From positions 124,001 to 188,000 of the IMG/VR virus record IMGVR_UViG_3300050132_000038: DNA of 64,000 bases, one strand, 5' to 3'. The notes beneath the pieces are model-generated. The model was not told the origin of the DNA. It saw only the letters and a list, made by a program, of their open reading frames with translations, and did not search any database. Of this stretch, positions 12,852-26,307 are shown one piece after another. The position numbers and the translations under genes are program-made. This stretch comes from a virus. Every line of letters begins with the position of its first letter. Position 1 is the stretch's first letter.

Positions 12852-14042
12852 ATGAGTATTTCTAACCTGCTCTCTCTGTTAACCCCCGGCGCTGTGTTTC
12901 TCAACGAGAAAGGCCGCACCGTAAAGTTTTTGATGTTGACCAATATGGACCTTCCGGCAAAGGTTCAGGTTAAGCACCCACCGCAAGTTGTGTATGCAGA
13001 CGACCAAGGTAACTTCTACAATCGTGACGTGGATAACTTCCTGGAATACTACAAGTTCTACAACGTTGATCCGGAATTGGAAGCACGTATTGAAAACCTG
13101 TTGGTGTTCAACGAGGACGACACGGATGAAGTGGAAGAGCCTGCAGAAGGTGAACCGCTGATTCAACTTACTGCAAAGGGGCTGGCAGAGATAGACGCAT
13201 TTGACGCTCGAGATCAGGCGCGTGCCGAACGCTTTGCCGATAAAGTTCAGCAGAGTAATGTTCCGCAAGCTACAACGATTCTTGCCCAAGCCCTGTCTGT
13301 CGAAACGGACGACGGCCTGTTGCTCCCACCGGAGAAAGTAACGGCTACAAAGAAGAAGTCGCCGTTGAAGGTTGAGTTCAGCACAATGAGCAGCACGGAG
13401 CGCACGGTTCCTCTGGTTCTCGATCCGGCCCAGCTTACTGCCTCACTGGTTGCGTATTCGCAGTACCCGGATACTGTACAGAGCATGATTATGCATCGCC
13501 TTACGTTTGCCCTCAGCGAGCAGGTAACTATCAAGGCGTTGCAAGACCTGTTCCAGCCTAACGATCCCGCTAAAGCACAGCGTCACACGATGGACATTGT
13601 GGACGTACACACGACATTGACAGAAGACCGTATTGTTTGGACTTCATACGTTGGTGTATTCCCTGAGTTCCGTATCGATGGTTTGTACGCCACGGTGATC
13701 CTGGGTACGGATGAATTCCGTGATGCAGAACCTGTAGACGAGCTGGCTGGTGACATCACTGATGCGAGCGATTTTATCGCAGCGCTCCGAGCAGAAGCAC
13801 CTGCGGTAGAATTGGACTCAGACCTCCGGGATGCAACCCAACGTGTTATGGACAGCATGAGTACTCAGGTGCAAGGCACGACTATCCATATCAACCCGGA
13901 CAACTTGGTTAGCCAGAATACTACAGCGCAGTTCAATACGGATAGTCTGACCCAGGAGCAGCGGGATACCGTTATTCAGATGACTCCCTCGTCCGAGCAG
14001 TTGTTCGATCAAAGTGGTACGGATGTTCCCGGTGCTCTGTAA
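12852..14042 (+). CDS. Hypothetical protein, 396 aa
   Basis: Unrecognised acidic protein. The N-terminal ~85 residues look like a compact domain (GAVFLNEKGRTVKFLMLTNM). A Glu/Asp-rich linker follows (DDTDEVEEPAEGE), then a larger region with repeated TT/TL pairs. RBS AGAGGA upstream. It forms its own unit, with a gap and candidate promoter before it and a terminator after it, which suggests high or separately timed expression. Confidence 0.65.
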   Translation: MSISNLLSLLTPGAVFLNEKGRTVKFLMLTNMDLPAKVQVKHPPQVVYADDQGNFYNRDVDNFLEYYKFYNVDPELEARIENLLVFNEDDTDEVEEPAEGEPLIQLTAKGLAEIDAFDARDQARAERFADKVQQSNVPQATTILAQALSVETDDGLLLPPEKVTATKKKSPLKVEFSTMSSTERTVPLVLDPAQLTASLVAYSQYPDTVQSMIMHRLTFALSEQVTIKALQDLFQPNDPAKAQRHTMDIVDVHTTLTEDRIVWTSYVGVFPEFRIDGLYATVILGTDEFRDAEPVDELAGDITDASDFIAALRAEAPAVELDSDLRDATQRVMDSMSTQVQGTTIHINPDNLVSQNTTAQFNTDSLTQEQRDTVIQMTPSSEQLFDQSGTDVPGAL

Positions 14043-14075
14043 AGAAACCACTGGTTAAGACTTAAGTAGTATATG

Positions 14076-14116
14076 AGCCCACCTGAGCTAACTAACGGCT
14101 GGGTGGGCTTTTTTTC
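14076..14116 (+). terminator. Rho-independent terminator
   Basis: GAGCCCACC pairs with GGTGGGCTT; a run of seven T follows. The hairpin can be extended by GAGC/GCT pairing. It ends the 12852 gene unit. Confidence 0.85.
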
Positions 14117-14152
14117 ATTCCGCCCACCTAGCATCATTGAGGATTTAAGATT

Positions 14153-15178
14153 ATGGAGAAGGGACAGTATGCCATCGGGTTAGCCCGGTCAAACGAAGGT
14201 AAAGCAAAACCCTTCTTATTCAAAGTAACAGGACAGCATAAAGGTATCGTCTCTGGGTTTCTTACTAAGGACTCACACATATCAAGTCTCAAGTCTAGTG
14301 TAGAAGTTCCTATCAAAGACGTTATCATCAACCTTGGTGCAGAACCCTACCCTGGTAAAGTCCATGGCTGTGACTTGAACAACCTGTACACGGGGAAGAA
14401 GCTCCACACTCACTTCGGACAGATTCACTTCTTCTACAAGCCTGCTCCTGAGGTAGGTCAGAACCTCTTCGCTGCACTAGATAAAGTGTACAAGGTGTTA
14501 AAGCAGAATCGGTTAGAGTTCGTCGTCCAGCCTGATACCTGCATGTGGGAAGTGCTACCCTTCCACGGAGAGAAATACGCTGGTATGTACTGTCGATCCA
14601 AGAAGCCGGAGACTAGTCCCCATCGTCTCCAGATTCGCCCGGAGATCATGCCGTCCTCTGACTACCCATACGTTATCTACCATGAGCTCGCGCACCACCT
14701 CCACAAAGAGTTTGCTACAGGTTCCAAGCTTCAAGCCGCATGGATTCAACTATACAGCTCTACCATCAAGGTATCGTCAATCCGTAAGGATCAGTCCACT
14801 GAGATGCTTGAGGCATTGCTTACTCAGGAAGATCCCCCGTCTGCATATAAGAGTGTGCTGAGCGAGGAAGACGCTCAGATCTACAAACTAATATTGAAGA
14901 ACATTCAACAGAATCACCAGATCTCAGTTAAAGAATTGGACCTACTGTTTGAAGCTGACTACCGTGATGACATTCGCAGCGTGTGGCCGACCCGTGGCAT
15001 TGCTAAGAAGGACTTAGCTCCTGTAGTAAGTGAGTACGCCTTGACCAAGTGGACTGAACTTGTGGCAGAGAGCGTGGCCTACAGGCTTACGGGTAAGAAG
15101 CTGCCCAAGGAAGTTGAAGCACTTGTGGACAAGACATTCTCGTATGCCAGATCCAATCACGAGAAGCGGAGCAACTAA
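14153..15178 (+). CDS. Zinc metallopeptidase-like protein (HExxH)
   Basis: In this 341-aa protein, YHELAHHLHKEF provides HExxH at residues 177-181. A downstream WTELVAESVAYRLTG could supply the third, acidic zinc ligand of a gluzincin. The first ~130 residues contain beta-rich text and GQIHFFYK, possibly a binding domain. No signal peptide is visible, so it probably acts in the host cytoplasm or within virions. It overlaps the following gene by one base (TAATG). The substrate is unknown. Confidence 0.7.
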   Translation: MEKGQYAIGLARSNEGKAKPFLFKVTGQHKGIVSGFLTKDSHISSLKSSVEVPIKDVIINLGAEPYPGKVHGCDLNNLYTGKKLHTHFGQIHFFYKPAPEVGQNLFAALDKVYKVLKQNRLEFVVQPDTCMWEVLPFHGEKYAGMYCRSKKPETSPHRLQIRPEIMPSSDYPYVIYHELAHHLHKEFATGSKLQAAWIQLYSSTIKVSSIRKDQSTEMLEALLTQEDPPSAYKSVLSEEDAQIYKLILKNIQQNHQISVKELDLLFEADYRDDIRSVWPTRGIAKKDLAPVVSEYALTKWTELVAESVAYRLTGKKLPKEVEALVDKTFSYARSNHEKRSN

Positions 15179-15513
15179 TGTTCCTCGATAGACTTACTGA
15201 CGCAGGGATCATGATTCACGGGGATGGGTCAAAGGTTAGCGATCGTGTGCAGAGCATTGCGGATTCCACCGTATCGCTACTCCCTAAGATGGGTTCAGCT
15301 ATGATGGTCTCGGTCAATAAGAGTACCCTCCAGCTATTCTGGCAATCACGAGATAGGTCTATGCAGGTGTTGATTGATAGCGCCCTTAGGGTAGCCGTGA
15401 AGGTTAGTGACGGGACTATCAATCGCACTCATTATTGTGCAGGCGAGTCTAGTGCTCTGGGTGCATGCCTGGAGAAGGGGCTAACCATCTATCGAACTGT
15501 AAATAGGGTGTAG
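15178..15513 (+). CDS. Hypothetical protein, 111 aa
   Basis: The start codon shares a base with the stop of the metallopeptidase gene (TAATG), so the two are translationally coupled. Unrecognised; a predicted alpha/beta protein with a cysteine pair near the C-terminus. A TGTAAATA box (15498) lies at its 3' end, 25 nt before queD. Confidence 0.55.
   Translation: MFLDRLTDAGIMIHGDGSKVSDRVQSIADSTVSLLPKMGSAMMVSVNKSTLQLFWQSRDRSMQVLIDSALRVAVKVSDGTINRTHYCAGESSALGACLEKGLTIYRTVNRV
15498..15505 (+). promoter_or_regulatory. TGTAAATA box upstream of queD
   Basis: It lies inside the last codons of the preceding gene, 24 nt before the queD start. The RBS AAGGAG is downstream, so a start site about 7 nt after the box would leave a short usable leader. 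Candidate only. Confidence 0.3.
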
Positions 15514-15529
15514 TTAAGGAGAATTAATT

Positions 15530-16024
15530 ATGGAACAACAGGGCCTCGGCAAGATCACCAAACAGATTTATCGGTCAACGAAGACGTACGGCCACAACGA
15601 AGGTCTCTCCTGCGCCTTCCGTCAGTGGCGTGCAACTCATTCGCACTGTAGCCTCATCCATGGCTATGCCTTGTCATTCAAATTCGTGTTCGCATGTTCT
15701 GTCCTGGATGAGCGCCATTGGGTTCAGGACTTTGGCGCACTAGCTGAACTTAAGGACGGGCTGAAGCAGCACTTCGATCACAAGACAGTAGTTGCGATGG
15801 ACGATCCTCTCCTAGACTCTTTCGAGGAGATGGAGCGTCTGGGACTACTGCGCTTAACCATCCTTCACTCCGTAGGATGTGAGGAGTTTGCCCAATTTGG
15901 ATGGCAACTAGCCAATGCCTTAGTTACTAAAGCTCATCCAGACGGCCGGGTGTGGGTGGAATCCTGTGAAGTTGCAGAGCACGGTGCCAATTCAGCTATC
16001 TATACGGTGGAGCCAGTATTGTAA
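15530..16024 (+). CDS. queD: 6-pyruvoyl-tetrahydropterin/6-carboxytetrahydropterin synthase-like, QueD
   Basis: The 164-aa protein belongs to the divergent QueD subfamily marked by CAFRQWRATHSHC (Cys28-Cys40) and IHGYALSF, with DFGAL, FDHKTVVAMDDP and EHGANSAIY further on. It converts dihydroneopterin triphosphate to 6-carboxytetrahydropterin in preQ0 synthesis. The classical HGH zinc pair is HGY here; I believe the CAFRQW variant is common in this subfamily, so loss of function should not be assumed. RBS AAGGAG. Its TAATG junction couples it to the kinase gene. Confidence 0.85.
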   Translation: MEQQGLGKITKQIYRSTKTYGHNEGLSCAFRQWRATHSHCSLIHGYALSFKFVFACSVLDERHWVQDFGALAELKDGLKQHFDHKTVVAMDDPLLDSFEEMERLGLLRLTILHSVGCEEFAQFGWQLANALVTKAHPDGRVWVESCEVAEHGANSAIYTVEPVL

Positions 16025-16707
16025 TGCGTAAGACAATTGTTTTGATCCAGGGCTTGCCTGGATCTGGTAAGACCACGCTTGCAGATATTCTGTCGGAGAA
16101 GACGGGTGGGGCTCGTGTTAATGCCGACTACGTGCGTAACAATGTCAACACTGATCTGGGATTTTCTCCAGAGGATCGTATTACCCAAGCACATCGCATG
16201 GGGAAGATTGCTAACATTGCACTATCAGGGGCAAACGATTTAGCCATCGTAGACTTTGTGTGCCCCACACCTGCTACACGTAAAGCGTTCAAGCAGGCAA
16301 CCGACTATCGCATCTTCAATGTATGGATGGACACTATTCAAATCGGTCGCTTTGAGGATACCAATAAGCTTTACGTAGGTCCCCAAGACGTGGACTACAA
16401 GGTTGAGATCTATCTGTCGGAAGAGGGCTTCCACAAGATCGCTGAGGACATAGCGTTTCAACTTGCCCTTGCTAGTAATCGAAAGACTAAACGCTATTAC
16501 CTGCGTTACAACACCTTGGTAGGGGACACTGATCTTCGCTGGCGAGTTATAGACGCTGACACCAAAGAGGAGCAGTTAGCAAAGAGCTTTAGAGTGGACG
16601 GCCTTACACTATTCCCCGCATCTTCAATAGAGCATGGGGTAGTCAAGTGGAATGTGGCAGTTGATGGTCAAGCTGTCTGGACTGATAACTCTGTATTTTT
16701 CAAGTGA
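16024..16707 (+). CDS. P-loop kinase, adenylylsulfate (APS) kinase-like, with C-terminal extension
   Basis: Walker A is GLPGSGKTT (residues 10-18). NADYVRNNVNTDLGFS followed by EDRITQAHRMG matches the APS-kinase signature (D..R..L..dLGFs..dR). APS kinase phosphorylates adenylyl sulfate to the sulfate donor PAPS, although relatives phosphorylate other small molecules. The kinase part covers about 150 residues, and a ~70-residue extension of unknown role follows. The start is coupled to queD, and a sulfotransferase-like gene follows directly, which favours a sulfate-related role. Confidence 0.7.
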   Translation: MRKTIVLIQGLPGSGKTTLADILSEKTGGARVNADYVRNNVNTDLGFSPEDRITQAHRMGKIANIALSGANDLAIVDFVCPTPATRKAFKQATDYRIFNVWMDTIQIGRFEDTNKLYVGPQDVDYKVEIYLSEEGFHKIAEDIAFQLALASNRKTKRYYLRYNTLVGDTDLRWRVIDADTKEEQLAKSFRVDGLTLFPASSIEHGVVKWNVAVDGQAVWTDNSVFFK

Positions 16708-16709
16708 CC

Positions 16710-17546
16710 ATGAAAATTCATATCGTTAGTCTACAACGCTCAGGCTCTAAGAGTCTGTACAACTCTATCCACAGTGCACTAAATAAGCCCCTCACATTCT
16801 CTAACGGAGACTCGTTGGGCGAGTATCTGCACTGCTGGTCGGAGTACGGCTACAAGTTTAGCTTTAGCGCTACGAAACCCTTCGATCCTACGGCCTGCAT
16901 ACTGTTTAGGACTCACCCAGAGTTTGGGGGCTACGTGGGTTCCAATTTCACGCCTGCCTACCATCAAGGTGTGCTCAGTTGGAAACCCACAGATTACAAA
17001 GAAGTCCTTAGCTACGCAGACATAGAGCACCGCCTAAAGGCGATCCACCTTAGCCGTAGTTTGGTGGTAAAGACCCAGCTTGCCTCACTCCTCGAGGAGT
17101 TCGACCCTGCACAGCGTGTATGTATTAAGAATGCCGTGTTGGATCCGAGCCTATTCAACCGAACCATATTCTTGGTTCCTGATGATCTCGAACGCTGGCT
17201 ATGCTCGAATTATCTGTGCGACCATTCAGGCGTGTTTGTACAGTGCAAGTCTCAGGCGGAGGCAGCGGCTGCTTTCAAGGCAACCCCTGTTACGATTCCC
17301 ACTGAATACTTAGACTTGTTGAGCTCTAGGTATCGAGTACATAAAAATCTTGCGTGTGGGGCTGATGGGTTAGTAATCCACACGTCTGCCCTTACTAGTG
17401 AAAGTACCCGTACGCTACTTGAGTTTACTCTCGGTATAAAAGTACACGTTAAAGACGAAAAGGAATTCTCCGCCTTTGACTACTCAACCATGATTAAGAA
17501 TTACGACGGGGTTATCCATGCGGCAGATCAGTTACGACGAGCTTAA
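16710..17546 (+). CDS. Sulfotransferase-like P-loop protein
   Basis: The N-terminus MKIHIVSLQRSGSKSLYNSI (LQRSGSKSL, residues 8-16) resembles the 5'-phosphosulfate-binding loop of PAPS-dependent sulfotransferases. FRTHPEF and VPDDLERWLCSNYL later are compatible with the fold (278 aa is a usual length). A GTG at 16704 is an alternative start; the ATG is preferred. It sits directly after the APS-kinase-like gene. The family call is from one motif plus context, so a related P-loop role is possible. It overlaps the next gene by 29 nt. Confidence 0.6.
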   Translation: MKIHIVSLQRSGSKSLYNSIHSALNKPLTFSNGDSLGEYLHCWSEYGYKFSFSATKPFDPTACILFRTHPEFGGYVGSNFTPAYHQGVLSWKPTDYKEVLSYADIEHRLKAIHLSRSLVVKTQLASLLEEFDPAQRVCIKNAVLDPSLFNRTIFLVPDDLERWLCSNYLCDHSGVFVQCKSQAEAAAAFKATPVTIPTEYLDLLSSRYRVHKNLACGADGLVIHTSALTSESTRTLLEFTLGIKVHVKDEKEFSAFDYSTMIKNYDGVIHAADQLRRA

Positions 17547-18003
17547 GATCATTGCGAAGAACGTGGCAAAGAGTATTTCTACGAAGGGCGGTACTTATAG
17601 GCTAGTAGCAGTAGCTCGTGGTGGACTAACCTTTGCCCAACTAGTGTCCTACTACTTGTCAAAGCCCCTAGAATTCTTTATCCCCGCATACTCAGAGATG
17701 ACTGGTAGTGACTATTGGGAAATGTACACCCACTTCATTTTTCTTGAGGACGTCATTGCAGAAGGTCGTACCTTCCGTATCATCGACGACTATGTTACCC
17801 GCCAGGGGTTACCTAGCTGGGAAATGATACCTGTGGTCCTGGATAGTAACGCCCCTGCCGATATACAGGACCGTGTAAATACATATGGAATGAAGACGTC
17901 CGACTGGATTGTGTTTCCCCATGAAGACGTTGCACACACAGTTGAAGGCGATCGTGGATTGTTCCGCGCTGGCACGTCTGCAAATTCCAACCCTATCATT
18001 TAA
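17518..18003 (+). CDS. Phosphoribosyltransferase (type I PRTase)
   Basis: The 161-aa protein shows VAVARGGLTFAQLVSYYL (residues 30-47) and the PRPP-binding loop FLEDVIAEGRTF (residues 75-86, acidic pair Glu77-Asp78). It is of the purine/xanthine PRTase type. It would join a base to PRPP or the reverse. Its location inside the preQ0 cluster raises the possibility that it acts on a deazapurine base, which is inference. The start lies 29 nt inside the previous gene and queC follows after 4 nt. Confidence 0.8.
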   Translation: MRQISYDELKIIAKNVAKSISTKGGTYRLVAVARGGLTFAQLVSYYLSKPLEFFIPAYSEMTGSDYWEMYTHFIFLEDVIAEGRTFRIIDDYVTRQGLPSWEMIPVVLDSNAPADIQDRVNTYGMKTSDWIVFPHEDVAHTVEGDRGLFRAGTSANSNPII

Positions 18004-18007
18004 GACC

Positions 18008-18778
18008 ATGAAGATCCTTATCTTATTCAGTGGTGGGCTCGATAGCCTTATTATGAAACGCTACGCAGAGGTTAACTACCCAGACGCTGAGGTAGTCTGT
18101 GCGTTCTACGATATTGGACAGGAGTACAATCATAAAGAGGTTGCAGCTCTCCCACCATTCGTTGAACAGTTAACGTTGGACTGGCTTACACCAAACGTCG
18201 AAGCCCAGAGTAAAGATGGCTCGGACTCGGGTAACATCTATATTCCTGGTCGCAACCTTGTTCTTGCAGTTGCCGCAGCCTGCAAGTACCTACCGGATCA
18301 AGTTTGGCTCGGTGCCCTGCTCGGTGAAGTACACGAGAGTGCTACCGATAAGAACTGGAAGTTCCTGGATCAAGCAAGTGACACGCTATCCTACGTGTTG
18401 TCTCCGTTCAAGCCTAACGGTGTACAGGTTAAGTTCCCCTTAGCTAACGCTGGATTCAACAAGCTGACGGCCACCAAGTGGGCATTAGACAATGGCGTTC
18501 CAGTTGAGGCAATCCTGAAATCTAGCTCCTGTCTATCTGGTGAGCACGGTAACTGCGGCAAGTGTGTAGTGTGCTTTAGACGTTGGGGAATCTTCAAACA
18601 ACTCGGAATACCCGAAGAACAGTACAATGTTCATCCCTTAGAATCTACAGAGAATGAATTGATAGCAGCCGAGATGCTGCTTGGAACTTATTACGATGAA
18701 CACCGCATCCAAGAAATTGTCCCCGCCCTCCCCGACTGGTACAAAGAAAAAGTTATCGAAAAGTACAGAACAAAATAA
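18008..18778 (+). CDS. queC: 7-cyano-7-deazaguanine (preQ0) synthase QueC
   Basis: PP-loop ATPase motif SGGLDS (residues 8-13) and a zinc site Cys175, Cys183, Cys186 and Cys189 in the SCLSGEHGNCGKCVVC segment identify QueC. It turns 7-carboxy-7-deazaguanine into preQ0 with ATP and ammonia. Length 256 aa, close to bacterial QueC. The ATG at 18008 is chosen because the signature starts right after it and it follows the PRTase stop by 4 nt; the frame continues upstream but overlaps the PRTase. Confidence 0.92.
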   Translation: MKILILFSGGLDSLIMKRYAEVNYPDAEVVCAFYDIGQEYNHKEVAALPPFVEQLTLDWLTPNVEAQSKDGSDSGNIYIPGRNLVLAVAAACKYLPDQVWLGALLGEVHESATDKNWKFLDQASDTLSYVLSPFKPNGVQVKFPLANAGFNKLTATKWALDNGVPVEAILKSSSCLSGEHGNCGKCVVCFRRWGIFKQLGIPEEQYNVHPLESTENELIAAEMLLGTYYDEHRIQEIVPALPDWYKEKVIEKYRTK

Positions 18779-20177
18779 GGTTGAAATCCTTCCTGCATCC
18801 GTTAACAGTCTGGCATTGAATGAGTTCATTGGCGTTAAGTACGGTCGGCCCAAACAGAAGGTATGGACTGCAGAACGTGTTAAGGGATTGTTCACGATCT
18901 ATCTACCTGATCGTACCGTTATGATAGGCCGTGGTAACTCAAACACGCTAGGCATTACCACTGAGGATCTGGACTCGTACTTCATGACCTCCCCAATGTC
19001 GAATCCCTCTATGCTGAAAGCTATTGGGTACAAGTACATGATGGTGACACCAGAGCGTCAGGCCACTTCGGATTACATGCGCCGGAATGGTATCATCAAG
19101 GTGTTCAGTGACTCCGGTGGGTTCCAGATGTCCAAGGGTGTTACTGAGTTCGTAGACCCCGACTTCGTTGCTTCCTTTTACAAGCAGCGTATAGACTACG
19201 GCATTGGCCTGGATGTACCACTGCCCAAGCATCTGCAGAACACCGATTGGTTCATGCGTATGTGTGACGTGCAGATCGCGAACAACAAGTACATCGCTGA
19301 ACGTCTTAAAGGTAGCCCCTGTGAATTGTATGATGTTAGCCATGGTCTTACACTAGAGAATAGAAAGCGATTCACTCACAAGGTGCTGGATAACAAAGTA
19401 GGTGTTGGCCTATCGCTAGGTGGTATTGGTCAAGCCAACTATGATACGTTGCACACGTCTACTATCATGGCCGTGCTTAATCTATGCTACGTACTGGACG
19501 CGTCAAAGGGCGTGTACGATAGATTCCACGTGCTGGGTACTACAGCCCCCTTCATGATCTCGGCGTATCACATCTTAACCGCGCTAGGAGTAGCTCCTTT
19601 CATTAGTGCGGATTCTTCGACGTACGCGCAGACCGGCCTAGCTATGAATACCAGGGGTACCATTTACCATAATGGGGCTGCCACTATCCCAAGCTTTCCT
19701 TTGGAGGATGAACACGTGTCCTATGGACTCCCTTGCTCCTGCCCGGTGTGTAGTATTGCTGGCTATCCGCAGGTGTATAGGTTGTCTGGCCCAGCTAATG
19801 GTATCCATACTCTGCACATAATGTATAAGTTGTCTGAAGTGGTTGGGGAGTACACTAAGCAGATGCTAGAGGGTCGTCCTACGCTAGAGCACCTACTTAC
19901 CCTAGTGGCTCCAAATAAATCCCAGTATCCAGTGTATCGCGCCCTCTACAAATTCTTGTTGTCGATGGACAAGGGCTTTAACAAGGCATGGGCTCTGCAT
20001 AAGGATTTCCTGCAACCGTATCTCCGCAAATCTAAGGAAGCTGACGGCCTGTTTAGTGCGTACTCTAAAATGCCAGAAGCTTTGAAGAAGGCGGAAGAGA
20101 ACACTACTAAGGCTATCTTGAGGTACGAGAAATTCCACGGCATTGGTCCTCAGGTAAAGACGAAGGGGAAGAAGTAA
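18696..20177 (+). CDS. dpdA: DpdA-like DNA/tRNA-guanine transglycosylase
   Basis: A TGT-superfamily enzyme, 493 aa. FSDSGGFQMSKG carries the catalytic-type Asp139 and GLDVPLP a second Asp173. The zinc site is CSCPVC (Cys347, Cys349, Cys352) with a His near 371-374. In phages with QueC/D/E and FolE, DpdA-type proteins swap guanine in DNA for preQ0 or derivatives. The start is uncertain: the first ATG (18696) lies 83 nt inside queC, and no start codon lies just after queC except a TTG near 18819. It overlaps the next start by TAATG. Confidence 0.85.
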   Translation: MNTASKKLSPPSPTGTKKKLSKSTEQNKVEILPASVNSLALNEFIGVKYGRPKQKVWTAERVKGLFTIYLPDRTVMIGRGNSNTLGITTEDLDSYFMTSPMSNPSMLKAIGYKYMMVTPERQATSDYMRRNGIIKVFSDSGGFQMSKGVTEFVDPDFVASFYKQRIDYGIGLDVPLPKHLQNTDWFMRMCDVQIANNKYIAERLKGSPCELYDVSHGLTLENRKRFTHKVLDNKVGVGLSLGGIGQANYDTLHTSTIMAVLNLCYVLDASKGVYDRFHVLGTTAPFMISAYHILTALGVAPFISADSSTYAQTGLAMNTRGTIYHNGAATIPSFPLEDEHVSYGLPCSCPVCSIAGYPQVYRLSGPANGIHTLHIMYKLSEVVGEYTKQMLEGRPTLEHLLTLVAPNKSQYPVYRALYKFLLSMDKGFNKAWALHKDFLQPYLRKSKEADGLFSAYSKMPEALKKAEENTTKAILRYEKFHGIGPQVKTKGKK

Positions 20178-20617
20178 TGCGTGAACTGAAATACATAGAC
20201 TTAGAGAACGTATACGGCTATCCCTCGTTATCTCCTACCTTTATCAAGTGGCTGAAAGCTCGTGGTAACGTTCAACTTGTTATAGCCTTACACAACTTGG
20301 AAAAGGTTGAGCGCACAAAAGAGTTCATCATAGTGGTAACTGGGCTACCTTATCTGGAGTCGTGTGGTGTACCCATCTTAGGGTATAACTGCACTGAGGT
20401 AGGTCTGTGGCATCGAGGTGATCTTCCAACTAAGTTGAGACCTAATAAGGTACACATCTTACTCCCCAAGTTCCAAGGGGAGATGGCGGACACAAAGACT
20501 CTATACAACTTGTATGTAAATGATGTTATGAGCGAAACTTTCAGTCCTCGCTTCACTACGTACCATACCACGGAATGCTTGAACGACCGAGTATTCCGTC
20601 ACAAGAGAAAGACATGA
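20177..20617 (+). CDS. Hypothetical protein in the deazaguanine cluster, 146 aa
   Basis: Unrecognised. It is coupled on both sides (TAATG with dpdA, ATGA with queE), which strongly suggests a role with the preQ0 genes. The sequence has alternating beta strands (VQLVIALHN, EFIIVVTGL, KVHILLP) like a small Rossmann-type domain, but no nucleotide-binding motif is evident. Confidence 0.6.
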   Translation: MRELKYIDLENVYGYPSLSPTFIKWLKARGNVQLVIALHNLEKVERTKEFIIVVTGLPYLESCGVPILGYNCTEVGLWHRGDLPTKLRPNKVHILLPKFQGEMADTKTLYNLYVNDVMSETFSPRFTTYHTTECLNDRVFRHKRKT

Positions 20618-21414
20618 TTCCAATTATCCAGCACCGCGACAAGGCTATAACTCCAGCGAAGTATAAGCCATTCAAGGACAACCTACTTATAACTTCCGTG
20701 TTCCGCACGATTCAGTCCGAAGGTCCGTTCTCAGGTCACCCAGCGGTATTCGTCCGTACCGCTGGTTGTAACTTCGGAGCAAAAGATCCCAAAGGAATGT
20801 GCTCGTGGTGTGACACGGCCTTCGAGTTCGACAAAGGCTTACTGTACTCGCCTGAGAAGCTCCTAGAGGTTGTGCTGACCTTGCCTGGGTATAACTCTAA
20901 GGACATCTTGGTATTAACTGGTGGGGAGCCTACCCTCCAGCATAACCTGATTAAGTTCATGGAGATCGCGCAGCCTTGCTTCCGGGCTATTCAGATTGAG
21001 ACTAACGGGACACAACCCTCATTCTTCTTGGCACTCCTCAGTACTCAGGTACACCTCCCCCATGTAGTAGTGAGTCCTAAGGCATCGTCTACGACAGGGA
21101 CGTATCCAATGATCTCAGACAGAGTTCTAGGTGCGACTCGAGCACTCAAGTTTGTAGTCACGGCAGACCCTAGTGATCCGCAGCACGTAGTTCCTGAGTG
21201 GGCATTTAGGAATCAACACTATGGATACGAGCTTTACGTCTCCCCGATGGCTATATACAAACGAGCTTACGACGGTGAAGTATCCAACGCCTGGGACCCA
21301 ACGCTGATCGACCAAGAAGCAACCGCCCGCAACTATGCCTATGCTGCAAAGTACGCAATGGAACATAACTGCTTGCTTTCAATCCAGGGTCATCTCTTCA
21401 CGGCAGTTCCCTGA
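20614..21414 (+). CDS. queE: 7-carboxy-7-deazaguanine synthase QueE (radical SAM)
   Basis: Iron-sulfur cysteines Cys52, Cys63 and Cys66 (C-x10-C-x2-C) form the expanded radical-SAM motif of QueE, followed by LTGGEPTL and QIETNGTQ. It converts 6-carboxytetrahydropterin to CDG using SAM. The ATG at 20614 overlaps the previous stop, and the upstream in-frame ATG at 20575 would overlap far more. 266 aa, slightly longer than typical bacterial QueE. Confidence 0.92.
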   Translation: MIPIIQHRDKAITPAKYKPFKDNLLITSVFRTIQSEGPFSGHPAVFVRTAGCNFGAKDPKGMCSWCDTAFEFDKGLLYSPEKLLEVVLTLPGYNSKDILVLTGGEPTLQHNLIKFMEIAQPCFRAIQIETNGTQPSFFLALLSTQVHLPHVVVSPKASSTTGTYPMISDRVLGATRALKFVVTADPSDPQHVVPEWAFRNQHYGYELYVSPMAIYKRAYDGEVSNAWDPTLIDQEATARNYAYAAKYAMEHNCLLSIQGHLFTAVP

Positions 21415-21421
21415 GGCTGAT

Positions 21422-21751
21422 ATGCGCAAATTTCTGGTTACGGCTGATGGCAACGAGTATGAGTTGAGCCCACTCACGCAAGAAGAATTCACAAAAATCA
21501 ATCTGTGGTGCGGCGGTGACGATATGGCATTCGATGCTTGGCTGCGTGCCAACCGCCTGCATGAACTAGACAGCTTTCGTAGCGAAGTACTTCAGCAAAG
21601 CGTTATTGAGATGCGCAACGAAACTGTCGACCTCCTGTTCGATCCGTCGGGTGAGAATTTCATTCCCTATTCCGAAGTTCGCGCACAGTCCATTTCCTCT
21701 CAGACGTTTCAGAACAAACTCAACCAACAGCTCAGGGATGCGTACTCATGA
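21422..21751 (+). CDS. Hypothetical protein, 109 aa
   Basis: Unrecognised small acidic protein. The ATG at 21422 (MRKFLVTADGNEYEL) lies 7 nt after queE with GAGGC upstream; earlier in-frame ATGs overlap queE. It reads like the small capsid/tail chaperone-type proteins often seen in phages, but no assignment is made. ATGA overlap with the next gene. Confidence 0.6.
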   Translation: MRKFLVTADGNEYELSPLTQEEFTKINLWCGGDDMAFDAWLRANRLHELDSFRSEVLQQSVIEMRNETVDLLFDPSGENFIPYSEVRAQSISSQTFQNKLNQQLRDAYS

Positions 21752-22071
21752 ACCCAAAGTGCAAAGTATGCGGTACACCGATGCCCTTGCGAGATGGTAA
21801 GTTTGGGCCTTTCTATTTCTGCCCTAGGTCGAAAGGATTCGTTAAGCACGGGACAATAACTAAAGCAGCCTACGACGCTCAACTTACTGCAGGTCTTGCT
21901 AAGGTATATAAACGAGACACAGAAGATCAGCAGATGGTGGATCATTTCAAGCGGGTAGAAGCCGCGGGTGCTGGCTCACTGTCGTCCTCAGTAATAGATT
22001 TCTATGTAGACCACTCACTGTCTTCCGATGAGAGCGATCCTGAGTGGGATAACATTTTACCTCTAGGTTAG
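21748..22071 (+). CDS. Zinc-ribbon protein, 107 aa
   Basis: KCKVCGTPMPLRDGKFGPFY then FCP gives a CxxC...C zinc-ribbon half similar to the C-terminal zinc domains of topoisomerase I. The last cysteine ligand is not obvious. The remainder is acidic. Probably nucleic-acid binding. It lies between queE and folE, in the same operon. Confidence 0.6.
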   Translation: MNPKCKVCGTPMPLRDGKFGPFYFCPRSKGFVKHGTITKAAYDAQLTAGLAKVYKRDTEDQQMVDHFKRVEAAGAGSLSSSVIDFYVDHSLSSDESDPEWDNILPLG

Positions 22072-22074
22072 ATT

Positions 22075-22728
22075 ATGACTTATTCAAAAGATAAAGATGT
22101 AGGTTTCGCAGTTCACCAGCACCTTGTAGAAGTTGGTGTTGAAACCCCGTTCACTCAGAAGAAGATCGACAAGACAAATCTTGAATATCTGTTCACCCAG
22201 ATCATGCGTGAGGTCGGGCTTGATCTAAAGGATGATTCTCTGAACGAGACCCCGCGCCGTCTTGCTAAGCTGTACTCAGACGAGTACTTCTACGGCCTGG
22301 ACTACAATAACTTTCCCAAGGCTACCGTAGTAGCGAACAAGTTTAACTATGACGAGATGCTTATCGAGCGTAACGTTAAAGTTAACTCGCTGTGCGAACA
22401 TCATTTTTTAAGTATCCTAGGTGGTGCCTTCATTGCATACATTCCCGAGAAGAAAGTATTAGGCTTGTCTAAGCTCAACCGCATTGTGGACTTCTTCTGC
22501 CGGCGTCCTCAGATTCAAGAGCGACTTACTGCCCAGATCTATCACGCACTATCCTTCCTTCTTGAGACAGAGAACGTTGCCGTGGTTATTGAAGCGGAGC
22601 ACCTCTGTGTCAAGACCCGCGGTATTATGGACGCGTGCTCGGATACCGTTACCTCGCAGTTAGGCGGCTCATTCAGGATTCCTGAGGTGCGTGCTGAGTT
22701 CATCTCCTTGTCTAAGGGGCTACGATGA
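22075..22728 (+). CDS. folE: GTP cyclohydrolase I
   Basis: A 217-aa FolE with zinc ligands Cys107, His110 (LCEHHFL) and Cys178 (LCVKTRG), plus GLSKLNRIVDFF. It opens GTP to dihydroneopterin triphosphate, the first step of preQ0 and folate synthesis. With QueD, QueE and QueC it gives a complete GTP-to-preQ0 route in the phage. ATGA overlap with the next gene. Confidence 0.94.
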   Translation: MTYSKDKDVGFAVHQHLVEVGVETPFTQKKIDKTNLEYLFTQIMREVGLDLKDDSLNETPRRLAKLYSDEYFYGLDYNNFPKATVVANKFNYDEMLIERNVKVNSLCEHHFLSILGGAFIAYIPEKKVLGLSKLNRIVDFFCRRPQIQERLTAQIYHALSFLLETENVAVVIEAEHLCVKTRGIMDACSDTVTSQLGGSFRIPEVRAEFISLSKGLR

Positions 22729-22922
22729 ATATTCAAGCAATCGCTACTGGTGTAATGATAGCCGAGTTTGAAGGTGCTGGGACAGTATTCAACGGTGAAG
22801 AGAAGATCGGTCTGCGGTTAGTCGGCCCAGAAGGCGTCTTCATTGCTTACCTACCCAACGATGCCGCAGCCGATCTCTCCGATCTTATTAAATCCTCACT
22901 AGAAACCGGTCGTATCGTCTAG
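22725..22922 (+). CDS. Hypothetical protein, 65 aa
   Basis: Overlaps folE by ATGA, which supports translation. Small and probably beta-rich in its first half; not recognised. Confidence 0.5.
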   Translation: MNIQAIATGVMIAEFEGAGTVFNGEEKIGLRLVGPEGVFIAYLPNDAAADLSDLIKSSLETGRIV

Positions 22923-22931
22923 AGGATTGAA

Positions 22932-22964
22932 ATGAGGAACATTGTAGTCTTCGATAAGGAATGA
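22932..22964 (+). other. 10-codon mini-ORF repeating the start of the next gene
   Basis: ATG at 22932 reads MRNIVVFDKE then stops at 22962-22964; two nucleotides later the HAD gene begins MGRRNLVVFDIDG. The shared DNA (GTAGTCTTCGATA) is a direct repeat. It may be a recombination or insertion scar, or act as a translational leader for the HAD gene. Confidence 0.45.
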
Positions 22965-22965
22965 T

Positions 22966-23433
22966 ATGGGTCGCCGTAATCTCGTAGTCTTCGATATAGA
23001 TGGTGTACTTATGGACTCAGAGCATCGCCTACCTCATATGCTGGCAGGTGACTTCCCTAAGTACTTCAAGATGTGGCAGTACGATACACCTCTACCCCCA
23101 GGTATTGCAGTGTGCAAAATGTTTATTGCTAATCCTGAGTACCGTGTGATCTTCTGTACAGGAAGAAGCGACACGCTTGTGCACAGGATTGGTACCCTAA
23201 CTCAGTTGCAAAACAATATTAGCCCCAAGATCCGTGACTCGCAACTGTTAATGCGGGAGTATCCAGAGGTTGGTCCTCACCTGCACGATACAGTGAAGAA
23301 GCCGTTGATGATTGAACAGGCAGGCTACTCACTCGATAACATCTTCATGGTATTTGAAGACCGGAATTCAATAGTAGATATGTGGAGGGAACGGGGTATT
23401 ACTGTCTATCATACACAGGACGGAGATTTCTAA
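22966..23433 (+). CDS. HAD-superfamily phosphatase
   Basis: FDIDGVLMDSE (motif I, residues about 9-19), FCTGRSDT (motif II) and FEDRNSIVDMWRERGI (motif IV) are all present in 155 aa. This resembles the phosphatase part of T4-type polynucleotide kinase and small nucleotidases. It would remove a 3' or 5' phosphate from a nucleotide or nucleic-acid end. No kinase domain is fused. The gene start is preceded by a duplicated start segment (22932-22964). Confidence 0.8.
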   Translation: MGRRNLVVFDIDGVLMDSEHRLPHMLAGDFPKYFKMWQYDTPLPPGIAVCKMFIANPEYRVIFCTGRSDTLVHRIGTLTQLQNNISPKIRDSQLLMREYPEVGPHLHDTVKKPLMIEQAGYSLDNIFMVFEDRNSIVDMWRERGITVYHTQDGDF

Positions 23434-23943
23434 ATGAAAGCTGTCGACATAAACAAAGGGAGTTGGCACTTCTGGTTGGCCTCCCAGGTTAGCTGGAAGC
23501 AGACCTACTACAGTAACAAACTTTGTAAGCGAGTACCTACTGACTTCTGTTACTATGTGCGCCGAGTCATCCTAGGATTTATTTGGGTAGCTATCTTAGC
23601 TTCAGTTGCACTAGCTCTAGCTGGTCTCTACCTGTACTCTGGGTACTACACAGTACAGTGGGTGCTAGATATGATCCACCAGGGTAAGTTCTTCCAAGGT
23701 CCAGGTGAGGCTGGCCCCTTCCTATTCATCACCAGCATGACCTTGGCCGTAGGTATAGCACTAGGTGTTATATTGTGTATCGCTCAAGCACTAAAGTGGC
23801 GTGATACTAGGTGCTATTTGGCACGAGAGCTTGCTCGTAGTAGAGCTGAGCCAACACTCCTTCTTAAAGAACCCTCCTTCGTACAAGTTGCGTATCGTTC
23901 TATCAAAGACAAAGTGTGTTTCCGTATTAACATCGTGGAGTAA
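23434..23943 (+). CDS. Two-pass membrane protein, 169 aa
   Basis: Two hydrophobic segments (about residues 45-70, VILGFIWVAILASVALALAG, and 96-118, LFITSMTLAVGIALGVILC) predict an integral membrane protein with both ends on one side and basic flanks. The family is not recognised. It could modify the host membrane or work in superinfection exclusion or lysis; context gives no choice. It directly abuts the HAD gene. Confidence 0.6.
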   Translation: MKAVDINKGSWHFWLASQVSWKQTYYSNKLCKRVPTDFCYYVRRVILGFIWVAILASVALALAGLYLYSGYYTVQWVLDMIHQGKFFQGPGEAGPFLFITSMTLAVGIALGVILCIAQALKWRDTRCYLARELARSRAEPTLLLKEPSFVQVAYRSIKDKVCFRINIVE

Positions 23944-23947
23944 GACA

Positions 23948-24856
23948 TTGGACAATAAACTATTCACCGGCAAGCAGTGCTCCGTTACAATTATCGAAGA
24001 CTCAGTGTCGCAGTTGACTCGTAAGAGACTGACTACCCTGCAGTTGCGCTACTGGCGTGCTGTACACTCGGAGTTCATGACGCACCGGATGTTCTCCCGT
24101 AACGCTAGTTCGAGCCGTGCTATTCCTACTGAGAGGTTGCTTTATCAAGTTGAGGAATTTCCTGCGTGTCCTGTACACTGGGGTAAGAACGAGTCAGGTA
24201 TGCAGGCGCGCGAAGAGCACAATGAGTTGGTGAAGCACCCTGTAACCGGAGAGTTCATGTCCCGCGAGGAAGCCTGGCGAGAAGCTTCTCGCAGCTCTAG
24301 TGCCTGGGCTCGTACCTTCGCTGATGCTGGTTATCATAAGCAAATCGTTAACCGCTTGGTTGAGCCTGCGTCCTTCATCTCTGTTGTAGTGACTGCGAGT
24401 GAGTGGGATAACTTCTTTGCCTTGCGTGACCACGAGGACGCACAGCCTGAGATTCAAGACTTAGCACGAACCATGAAGAAGGCAATGGATGCTTCTTCGG
24501 CGCGTGTTATTCATCCGGGTAAGCTTAGTGACCCTCGCACTTGGCATCTCCCCTACATTCAGATGTACGAGCGCCAGGCTTATACCGTTCCTCAGCTTCT
24601 CGGAATGTCTGCTGCACGTAATGCTCGGGTATCCTACCTGACTCACGACAATCAGAACCCGAAGATCGAAAATGACATTGGGTTGTATCGTCGTCTGGTG
24701 GAGTCGAAGCCCTTGCATGCTTCACCCTTGGAGCACCAAGCGTACTGTTCTGCATCCAAGGAACCCTCGGCTAACTTCACCGGTGGTTGGATTCAGCATC
24801 GTCGCTTGCTGGAAAACGCAGGGTCGATTGACAACCTAGCAGTAGCTCTTAAGTAA
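23948..24856 (+). CDS. thyX: Flavin-dependent thymidylate synthase ThyX
   Basis: The ThyX signature is seen in THRMFSRNASSSRAIP (residues 45-60, equivalent to RHRxxSxNxxSxR), with ASPLEHQAYC near the C-terminus. It makes dTMP from dUMP using FADH2 and methylene-tetrahydrofolate, supplying phage DNA synthesis. At 302 aa it is longer than many bacterial ThyX proteins, with a central insertion. The TTG at 23948 is chosen: GTGGAG lies just before it, and longer readings overlap the membrane-protein gene. Confidence 0.88.
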   Translation: MDNKLFTGKQCSVTIIEDSVSQLTRKRLTTLQLRYWRAVHSEFMTHRMFSRNASSSRAIPTERLLYQVEEFPACPVHWGKNESGMQAREEHNELVKHPVTGEFMSREEAWREASRSSSAWARTFADAGYHKQIVNRLVEPASFISVVVTASEWDNFFALRDHEDAQPEIQDLARTMKKAMDASSARVIHPGKLSDPRTWHLPYIQMYERQAYTVPQLLGMSAARNARVSYLTHDNQNPKIENDIGLYRRLVESKPLHASPLEHQAYCSASKEPSANFTGGWIQHRRLLENAGSIDNLAVALK

Positions 24857-24912: not shown

Positions 24913-25335
24913 ATGCTAACGCTTAAACAGATTGTACAAAAGGTAGATGCTTTTCGCAAAGAAGGTTCCCGGTACGTGCGTATAGTGCAGGTCAAGAAGG
25001 GCTTCGATAGCCTAGGGAGAGGCTTCATAGCGGCCGCCTCATACTCAACACACATCATAGGACCTGACGGTAAGCCTAAGGTCAACAGAGGTCCTCACCG
25101 TTACGTAACCGTTATAACGTTCCTCGATAAGAAGCTACACGTCCAGTGCTCGTGCTCATGCGATGACCAGCAGTACAGGTGGGAAGTTGCTCTAGCAGAG
25201 AAGGGTGCCGCAGAGATTGAATATTCGGATGGCTCTATGCCCAATACTACAAACCCATCTCGGCGCGCTGCCTGCTGCAAGCACCTCCGGGCCCTATACG
25301 ACCAGAAGCTAGCAGGTAAGATCCCAGGACTATAG
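24913..25335 (+). CDS. SWIM-type zinc finger protein, 140 aa
   Basis: VQCSCSCDDQQYRWE (about residue 78 on) followed by AACCKHLRALY gives the CxCx(n)CxH pattern of SWIM zinc domains, which bind DNA or protein. The basic N-terminal half may also bind nucleic acid. Its RBS lies in a predicted hairpin (24863-24911). The sigma-like gene follows after 3 nt, so it may help late transcription. Confidence 0.7.
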   Translation: MLTLKQIVQKVDAFRKEGSRYVRIVQVKKGFDSLGRGFIAAASYSTHIIGPDGKPKVNRGPHRYVTVITFLDKKLHVQCSCSCDDQQYRWEVALAEKGAAEIEYSDGSMPNTTNPSRRAACCKHLRALYDQKLAGKIPGL

Positions 25336-25338
25336 ACT

Positions 25339-26307
25339 ATGAGTTACCAGCACAGCAAAAGCTTTGAACAGCTAAAGGGCATCAACGAGTCGATCACCGG
25401 GAACCTTACTAGTCTGCAGTACCTACAGACTTTGGATATGTTTCTGTGGCGTGCTCTGGAACCTATTCACTCTGAGTGCCCCTCGCTGTTCAACAACTAT
25501 CTGGCTAAGGTGGTTGCGCACCAATCACTAAGAGCCTCAACCAAGTTTAGCTCAGATGACAGGACGAAGTTGCCTATCCTGTTGTTCAACCTGTTGTCTG
25601 AGCCGGACCCGAAGAAAGCACACGAGCATGCCAAGTCTATGCACATTAATCGTGGCATACTCTTCGGCTTCATCTCCATGTTCCTTAACAAGCTAAAGTA
25701 CTACGAAACGCTTAACTCCCCCTTCGTAGAGCTTGATGGTGTTTTCCGTAAGTCAGAGATGTATCGTATCGAGCAGGAGATGGGCTTACGCACAGGTGGT
25801 TCCCTCTACGCAGCAATGCAGCAGGTTCGCTACTGGGACGAGAAGGCTCGTGACTTCAAAGGTAAGATAATCCAGAAGTACACGCGCATGGCCCTGTTAA
25901 ACGCTAAGGCGGCCTATGCAGATTACAACCACTACGTTAAGCTAGACGACGTGGTACAAGTATATCTTATGATCGTCTCCAAGGCCATTGATCGCTGCGA
26001 TGCACGCCAGGGAGTACTTACTACCTTCATTCAGAGTTGGTTCAAGAGTGCCAAGTCGGAAGTCGCAAACATGGCTAAGGGTCAACTAGATCAATCCTAT
26101 GAAGCCTTATCAGAAGAACATGGTGATGCAGTCTCCGATATTATCGGATTCTCGTTACCCGATACAACCTCAGAGCTAGAGCAGCATATCTCATACGTTG
26201 CGAAGCAGATGGATCGACAAGGGTACATTAGAGCAGCCTTGCATATTCCTGAGTTCATGACGTTGGATCAGAAAGCTATTCTAGAACGCCACGCAGTGAG
26301 GAGCTAG
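25339..26307 (+). CDS. Sigma-70 region 2-like transcription factor
   Basis: In this 322-aa protein, residues about 195-245 (KLDDVVQVYLMIVSKAIDRC, DARQGVLTTFIQSWFKSAKS) match sigma region 2: L.DL.Q.g...l..A..rfD...g..F.Tya..wi...i. The rest is poorly conserved; a promoter-recognising region 4 is not obvious, although the last ~50 residues are helical. It could be a divergent phage sigma that directs host RNA polymerase to late promoters, like T4 gp55. The TGTAAATA boxes are candidate targets. Confidence 0.65.
   Translation: MSYQHSKSFEQLKGINESITGNLTSLQYLQTLDMFLWRALEPIHSECPSLFNNYLAKVVAHQSLRASTKFSSDDRTKLPILLFNLLSEPDPKKAHEHAKSMHINRGILFGFISMFLNKLKYYETLNSPFVELDGVFRKSEMYRIEQEMGLRTGGSLYAAMQQVRYWDEKARDFKGKIIQKYTRMALLNAKAAYADYNHYVKLDDVVQVYLMIVSKAIDRCDARQGVLTTFIQSWFKSAKSEVANMAKGQLDQSYEALSEEHGDAVSDIIGFSLPDTTSELEQHISYVAKQMDRQGYIRAALHIPEFMTLDQKAILERHAVRS

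Follow-up and report, generated by a model that had tools for sequence, protein, structure and literature searches.

The locus examined here raises the question of which base a phage would build when its 7-deazaguanine genes are interleaved with a kinase, a protein here called X and a phosphoribosyltransferase (PRTase). It occupies bases 15530-22728 of the window, i.e., the whole 64-kb stretch of DNA that was analysed (positions 124,001 to 188,000 of IMG/VR record IMGVR_UViG_3300050132_000038), which belongs to a 219-kb phage record of 218,861 bases; at the DNA level, bases 14000-24000 match nothing in the public phage collection. The 7-deazaguanines known from phage DNA are preQ0, preQ1, the amide, archaeosine and similar bases. 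The answer that we favour, with about even confidence, is that the operon replaces guanine in DNA with a hypermodified 7-deazaguanine, and that its QueC-family protein, designated QueC*, joins 7-carboxy-7-deazaguanine (CDG) to a sugar- or cyclitol-type group instead of making preQ0.

All genes of the run are on the + strand and overlap or abut one another, in the order QueD, kinase, X, PRTase, QueC-like, DpdA, small protein, QueE and FolE. The QueD-like 6-carboxytetrahydropterin synthase (15530..16024; PF01242 (PTPS), 3e-11; phrog_2389, 1.3e-37) is 52-55% identical to its counterparts in Achromobacter phage Motura and in two related IMG/VR phages, L011 and L012. The QueE-like radical SAM CDG synthase (20614..21414; Radical_SAM, 4.8e-9; phrog_2076, 1.7e-35) has the CX14CX2C cluster motif, FolE is a GTP cyclohydrolase I (22075..22728; PF01227, 9e-57), and QueC* (18008..18778; PF06508, 4e-12) is a divergent QueC-family ATP-pyrophosphatase; the PHROGs concur with Pfam on all four. 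They lie alongside a putative DpdA-like DNA guanine transglycosylase with a zinc site (18696..20177), which is the gene membership that characterizes DpdA systems of DNA 7-deazaguanine modification. The tight run of these genes and the kinase, described in an earlier note on this DNA, was thus confirmed by Pfam, PHROG and transglycosylase (TGT) matches, and the gene set, together with the conserved block described below, supports its identification as a DpdA-type locus.

The QueC-family protein itself, however, is not a canonical one. It scored 41.7 bits against the curated QueC equivalog, NCBIfam TIGR00364, for which the cut-off is 150.3, and it is 63-70% identical to the other three QueC of its clade (L011-L013) and 27% identical to that of Motura. 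Alignment of QueC* with the QueC of CAjan, 9g, KVP40, Dp-1, HVTV-1, Motura and others revealed that the QueC* group retains SGGLDS, IPGRN and the four zinc cysteines, but has lost the Tyr of YGQ and carries TDKN (or a near variant) where the canonical proteins have YPDC (or a near variant); the Asp of YPDC is therefore retained and is followed by an invariant Lys-Asn. The window protein has also lost the Tyr that follows its first zinc Cys, and does not have the full set of canonical QueC residues (YxQxHxxE, VPxRN, YPDC and the zinc-site residues). Three tyrosines of E. coli QueC (Y35, Y131 and Y189) are essential residues (PMC13329287). When IMG/VR was scanned with the QueC* alignment, 33 loci were recovered, and homologs at about 45% identity occur in the Menderavirus phages of Stenotrophomonas. 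In the phylogenetic tree, 24 QueC* sequences formed one phage-only clade (100/98), which was sister to six related sequences and separate from both canonical QueC and Gat-QueC. No canonical QueC was found in the 219-kb record or in the Menderavirus phage Moby. At one locus, L115, a canonical QueC stands next to a QueC*-like gene, and the two therefore need not be interchangeable; the full complement of this locus (L115 3800-10865) is QueD, QueE, PRTase, FolE, SDR, radical SAM, canonical QueC, HAD, QueC*-like and TGT in a single locus. Since QueC* is a divergent subfamily, 'preQ0 pathway', the term used in the earlier note, probably misnames the last step. The QueC* loci form a widespread and apparently undescribed branch of 7-deazaguanine modification in phages.

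An AlphaFold2 model of QueC*, with a mean confidence (pLDDT) of 92.6, had as its nearest folds QueC and the Cap9 structure with a CDG-protein product (9nto, 3.6e-7); the QueC fold is thus common to the window protein, to Cap9 of type IV CBASS and to QatC. Cap9 joins the carboxylate of CDG to an N-terminal amine, whereas QueC uses ammonia, and both contact guanine through YPDC, with its Tyr stacked on the base and its Asp reading the Watson-Crick edge (PMC13279940). QueC* may read guanine in the same way: the modelled fold and the retained Asp would fit a Cap9/QatC-like ligase, but the stacking Tyr is lost. The two also differ in context, as Cap9 keeps both Tyr and Asp and adjoins a CD-NTase, whereas QueC* has TDKN and adjoins DpdA, so that its acceptor is presumably a small molecule.

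The genes that accompany QueC* offered a view of what this small molecule may be. Genes were counted within 9 kb of 28 QueC* loci, dereplicated at 75% identity, and 19 canonical QueC loci from annotated phages served as controls. With the loci treated as independent, which they are not fully, inositol-3-phosphate synthase (Ino1) was found at 14 of the 28 and at none of the 19 (P about 2e-4), a HAD phosphatase at 19/28 and 0/19 (P about 1e-6), and a PRTase at 13/28 and 0/19 (P about 5e-4); DpdA, FolE, QueD and QueE were about equally frequent in the two sets. Most Ino1 loci have these genes in the order Ino1-HAD-QueC*, separated by small gaps at most, and our literature searches found no published link between Ino1 and QueC. 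Ino1 was not found in the genomes of the window, L011, L012 or L013, and the PRTases were of two types. Those of the Ino1 loci retain the catalytic Asp (VDDINDTGAT and variants), as in HPRT and Gpt, whereas the window, L011-L013, L093, L029 and L035 have Ala in its place (LEDVIAEGRT and variants). The Ala-type gene lies a short way upstream of QueC*, directly adjoining it in the window, L011, L012 and L093, and Ala-type PRTase and Ino1 never occur together in one locus.

The extra genes are also conserved as a block. The three relatives, L011, L012 and L013, were retrieved by scanning IMG/VR with a DpdA alignment, and their DpdA proteins are 59%, 55% and 51% identical to that of the window, respectively; scans with the single DpdA, kinase and X proteins had returned nothing. 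The order QueD-kinase-X-PRTase-QueC-DpdA-small protein is the same in the window, L011 and L012, even though the flanking genes are ordered differently and the block proteins of the two other phages are only 39-70% identical to those of the window. Conservation of this kind in divergent phages makes the extra genes part of the pathway, and it strengthens the suggestion in the earlier note that they could modify the base. L013 retains the kinase, PRTase, QueC and DpdA, but X is gone, and in its place are a glycosyltransferase (GT)-like protein, which has a glycosyltransferase-like DDD motif but matches no profile, and a DUF2264 protein (3.5e-58); X is therefore an exchangeable piece. The HAD phosphatase of the window (HAD_PNKP type; 22966..23433, +; PF25109, 2.6e-16) is situated 3' of the noted run, and its ortholog lies inside the operon in L011 and beside FolE in L012 and L013; it probably belongs to the pathway gene set.

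From these arrangements we infer a pathway; its substrate, the bond formed, the sequence of its steps and DNA as its target are all proposals. FolE, QueD and QueE would produce CDG, the carboxylate of which QueC* would activate with ATP, as Cap9 does, and couple to a nucleophile other than ammonia, without proceeding to preQ0. In one half of the QueC* phages the partner would probably derive from inositol phosphate, as Ino1 is next door; in the half to which the window belongs, the likelier partner is a compound of phosphoribosyl or other sugar type, which the variant PRTase would supply, a suggestion based on the Ala-type PRTase taking the place of Ino1. The HAD enzyme would remove a phosphate, the kinase and X, or the GT and DUF2264 proteins, would decorate the product, and DpdA would replace guanine in DNA with this base, in finished or part-finished form; the inserted base would shield the genome from nucleases. 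In its broader form, which we put forward more tentatively, QueC* would be a new family of small-molecule deazaguanylation enzymes that join CDG to sugar or cyclitol partners (inositol phosphate, or a phosphoribosyl-type compound in the branch of the window), producing undescribed DNA bases with interchangeable decoration modules (kinase and X; GT and DUF2264).

Several points weigh against this pathway. The link counts are drawn from related phages, and Ino1 is mostly limited to one QueC* subclade plus L096, amounting to few independent events; the hidden Markov models were seeded from QueC* loci, and their detection at control loci may thus be lowered; and 9 of the 28 QueC* loci show neither Ino1 nor a kinase nor a GT. 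No amine-forming enzyme was seen beside Ino1, which would make the bond an ester unless the amine comes from another source. Despite its changed residues, QueC* may still produce preQ0 or the amide. If so, it would be a diverged synthase that places dPreQ0 or dADG in DNA, while the kinase, X and PRTase would perform unrelated nucleotide work and merely be co-transcribed. The intact QueC fold and zinc site and the retained Asp of YPDC are as this alternative would predict, and since the 219-kb record has no other QueC, some enzyme must perform the last step if preQ0 is made. Nonetheless, we consider it unlikely, because tyrosines that are essential in QueC are lost (PMC13329287), the strong association with Ino1, HAD and PRTase is unseen at canonical loci, the extra genes keep their order as a block, and L115 carries a canonical QueC in addition.

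The variant PRTase (17518..18003), which would supply the sugar-type partner, was assigned through its family profile. The single window sequence was weak in Pfam (4e-4), but the profile matched purine PRTases (6igs, 6e-6; 1vdm, 9e-5, with WIVFPWEE aligned), and the protein has the WIVFPH tail and a phosphoribosyl pyrophosphate (PRPP) loop, LEDVIAEGRT, in which Ala replaces the catalytic Asp of HPRT and Gpt; it is probably a variant of the 6-oxopurine type. A salvage route through this enzyme, raised in the earlier note, is possible; plain guanine salvage is doubtful, since the PRTase of the window clade has lost the catalytic Asp. In such a scheme, the enzyme would not build the base, but would recover the guanine freed by DpdA, and so drive the exchange onward while replenishing GTP for FolE. 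Its purine type and WIVFP tail would suit this role, and PRTases do occur in DpdA loci that have no QueC* in the fetched stretch. However, besides the Ala substitution, no such PRTase was present at the 19 canonical loci, most of which have DpdA too, and the Ala type adjoins QueC* and is never found with Ino1. Salvage is accordingly quite unlikely for the window, although it may hold for the PRTases that retain Asp.

Sulfation of the base had been another proposal of the earlier note, and it was not supported. Here, the kinase would make 3'-phosphoadenosine 5'-phosphosulfate (PAPS), and X would be a sulfotransferase that places sulfate on the DNA base. The kinase (16024..16707; APS_kinase in Pfam, 2e-15) is a P-loop enzyme related to adenosine 5'-phosphosulfate (APS) kinase and is extended at its C-terminus by a region of unknown fold. 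Its family profile matched the APS kinase 2yvu at 1.3e-16, and it adjoins X in the window, L011 and L012. It exceeds the looser Pfam cut-off but falls below that of NCBIfam apsK (49.3 vs 138.7 bits), and it is conserved in L011 and L012 and divergent in L013. Protein X (16704..17546) has orthologs only in L011 (47%) and L012 (39%), and the 'sulfotransferase-like' identity first given to it was not borne out, its sole suggestive feature being the P-loop-like N-terminus, SLQRSGSKSL. It had no sequence match in Pfam, PHROG, NCBIfam or PDB; direct searches of the phage genomes with Sulfotransfer_1/3/4 did not match it; and profile comparison with a Sulfotransfer_4-like protein, encoded near a related kinase in phage Suzuki, was negative. 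A tblastn search of phages and plasmids with X produced nothing useful, and pattern scans of 84,980 bacterial and archaeal genomes found no relative of X or QueC*, which, as these scans need exact short patterns, is weak evidence of absence. The AlphaFold2 model of X, built from three sequences, reached a pLDDT of 40, which made it unusable, and it was not put to a fold search. Moreover, no ATP sulfurylase or PAPS reductase scored above cut-off in these phage genomes, and L013 keeps the kinase without X; the simple scheme of a kinase supplying PAPS to X was dropped once this was seen. Taken together, a sulfated base is very improbable. Kinases related to that of the window are also found in the Casjensviridae phages Suzuki, Clavibacter 33 and AhaSv (L008 6966-8726; L150 1523-3226; L151 1465-3235). 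The related kinases of Suzuki and DLP_6 (L009) carry a fused nucleotidyltransferase (CTP_transf-like) domain, and just upstream of the Suzuki fusion are a NADAR gene and the Sulfotransfer_4-like gene.

The transglycosylase had no Pfam match, and was recognized by its similarity to archaeosine TGT (1iq8, 3e-4) and to the TGT of Motura (33%). It keeps DSGGFQ and CxCPxC, and these motifs, together with D173 and D306, are invariant across seven phage homologs. Immediately 3' of DpdA is a small conserved protein without known family (20177..20617), the orthologs of which occupy the same position in L011, L012, L013 and Motura (gp027); it is a candidate partner of DpdA. Action of the operon on tRNA in place of DNA is highly improbable. 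In its favour, the TGT stands far from every named family and finds its best PDB match in an archaeal tRNA enzyme. Among named enzymes, however, it is closest to that of Motura, already read as part of a DNA-modification system (PMC7824862), and the de novo pathway is complete, as it is in phages whose DNA modification has been proven (PMC6884629). DpdA genes also occur in other settings. The jumbo phages NCTB, Illi-2, GR7B and GR11A (L003, L005, L006, L007) have a DpdA-like gene without adjoining que genes, followed by a small SWIM-like protein, and in the last three a sigma factor comes soon after. The window encodes a SWIM-like protein (24913-25335) that resembles the gene 3' of these lone DpdA genes; here it is apart from DpdA and beside a sigma factor at 25339. 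The DpdA locus L015 (4056-13700) has QueD, FolE, QueE, HAD, GT-like and DUF2264 genes, but the 21 kb that were fetched contain no type of QueC.

The DpdA phages 9g, CAjan and Motura have the same FolE, QueD, QueE, QueC-family protein and DpdA transglycosylase in one run; the window differs from them in having QueC*, in its additional genes for the kinase, X, the variant PRTase and the HAD phosphatase, and in having no Gat domain. Motura has been described as bearing a deazaguanine DNA system (PMC7824862), and at the corresponding place it has QueD, canonical QueC, AsnB-like, TGT, small protein, QueE and FolE. The earlier note had made its case depend on the extra genes being present in phages with the same modification. 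Motura, the nearest isolate, lacks all three, but its canonical QueC and AsnB-like gene indicate that it probably has a different base. The AsnB-like protein (gp025; L002 8730-10010; GATase_7 and Asn_synthase domains), encoded between canonical QueC and DpdA, recalls the amide ligase CmoY, so that Motura, too, may elaborate a base carboxylate or amide. Phage CmoY performs ATP-dependent ligation with the carboxylate of carboxymethylcytosine as the handle (PMC12783734). The CmoX/CmoY system and the proposed role of QueC* thus share an ATP-dependent ligase acting on a base carboxylate in a phage; the base and the ligase family are different, however, and CmoX/CmoY ligation takes place after the carboxylate is in DNA.

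The que locus of Menderavirus (Stenotrophomonas phages Moby, IME-SM1 and Ps15) shares QueC*, DpdA, QueE, FolE and a HAD-like gene with the window, and has Ino1 where the window has kinase, X and PRTase. The authors of the Ps15 study read the que locus as one for tRNA queuosine and treated Ino1 separately (PMC9025141). In Moby, a stand-alone cytidyltransferase-like gene (L077 20803-21303) is found about 8 kb after QueC*, and its homolog is also near QueC* in L107.

Should the CDG ligation by QueC* be true, the known phage 7-deazaguanines would be only part of the set, as a whole branch of phages would build larger, sugar-like bases by means of a QueC-family ligase, and phage DNA hypermodification would be tied to the enzyme fold of the bacterial Cap9 and QatC defences. 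It would also correct the annotation of these genes as preQ0 synthase or tRNA queuosine genes, and the Menderavirus phages, such as Moby, with Ino1 beside QueC*, would provide a cultured test case. The remaining gene of the run, between QueE and FolE, encodes a small zinc-ribbon-like protein (21748..22071), which is found in L011 and not in L012 or L013, and is thus optional.

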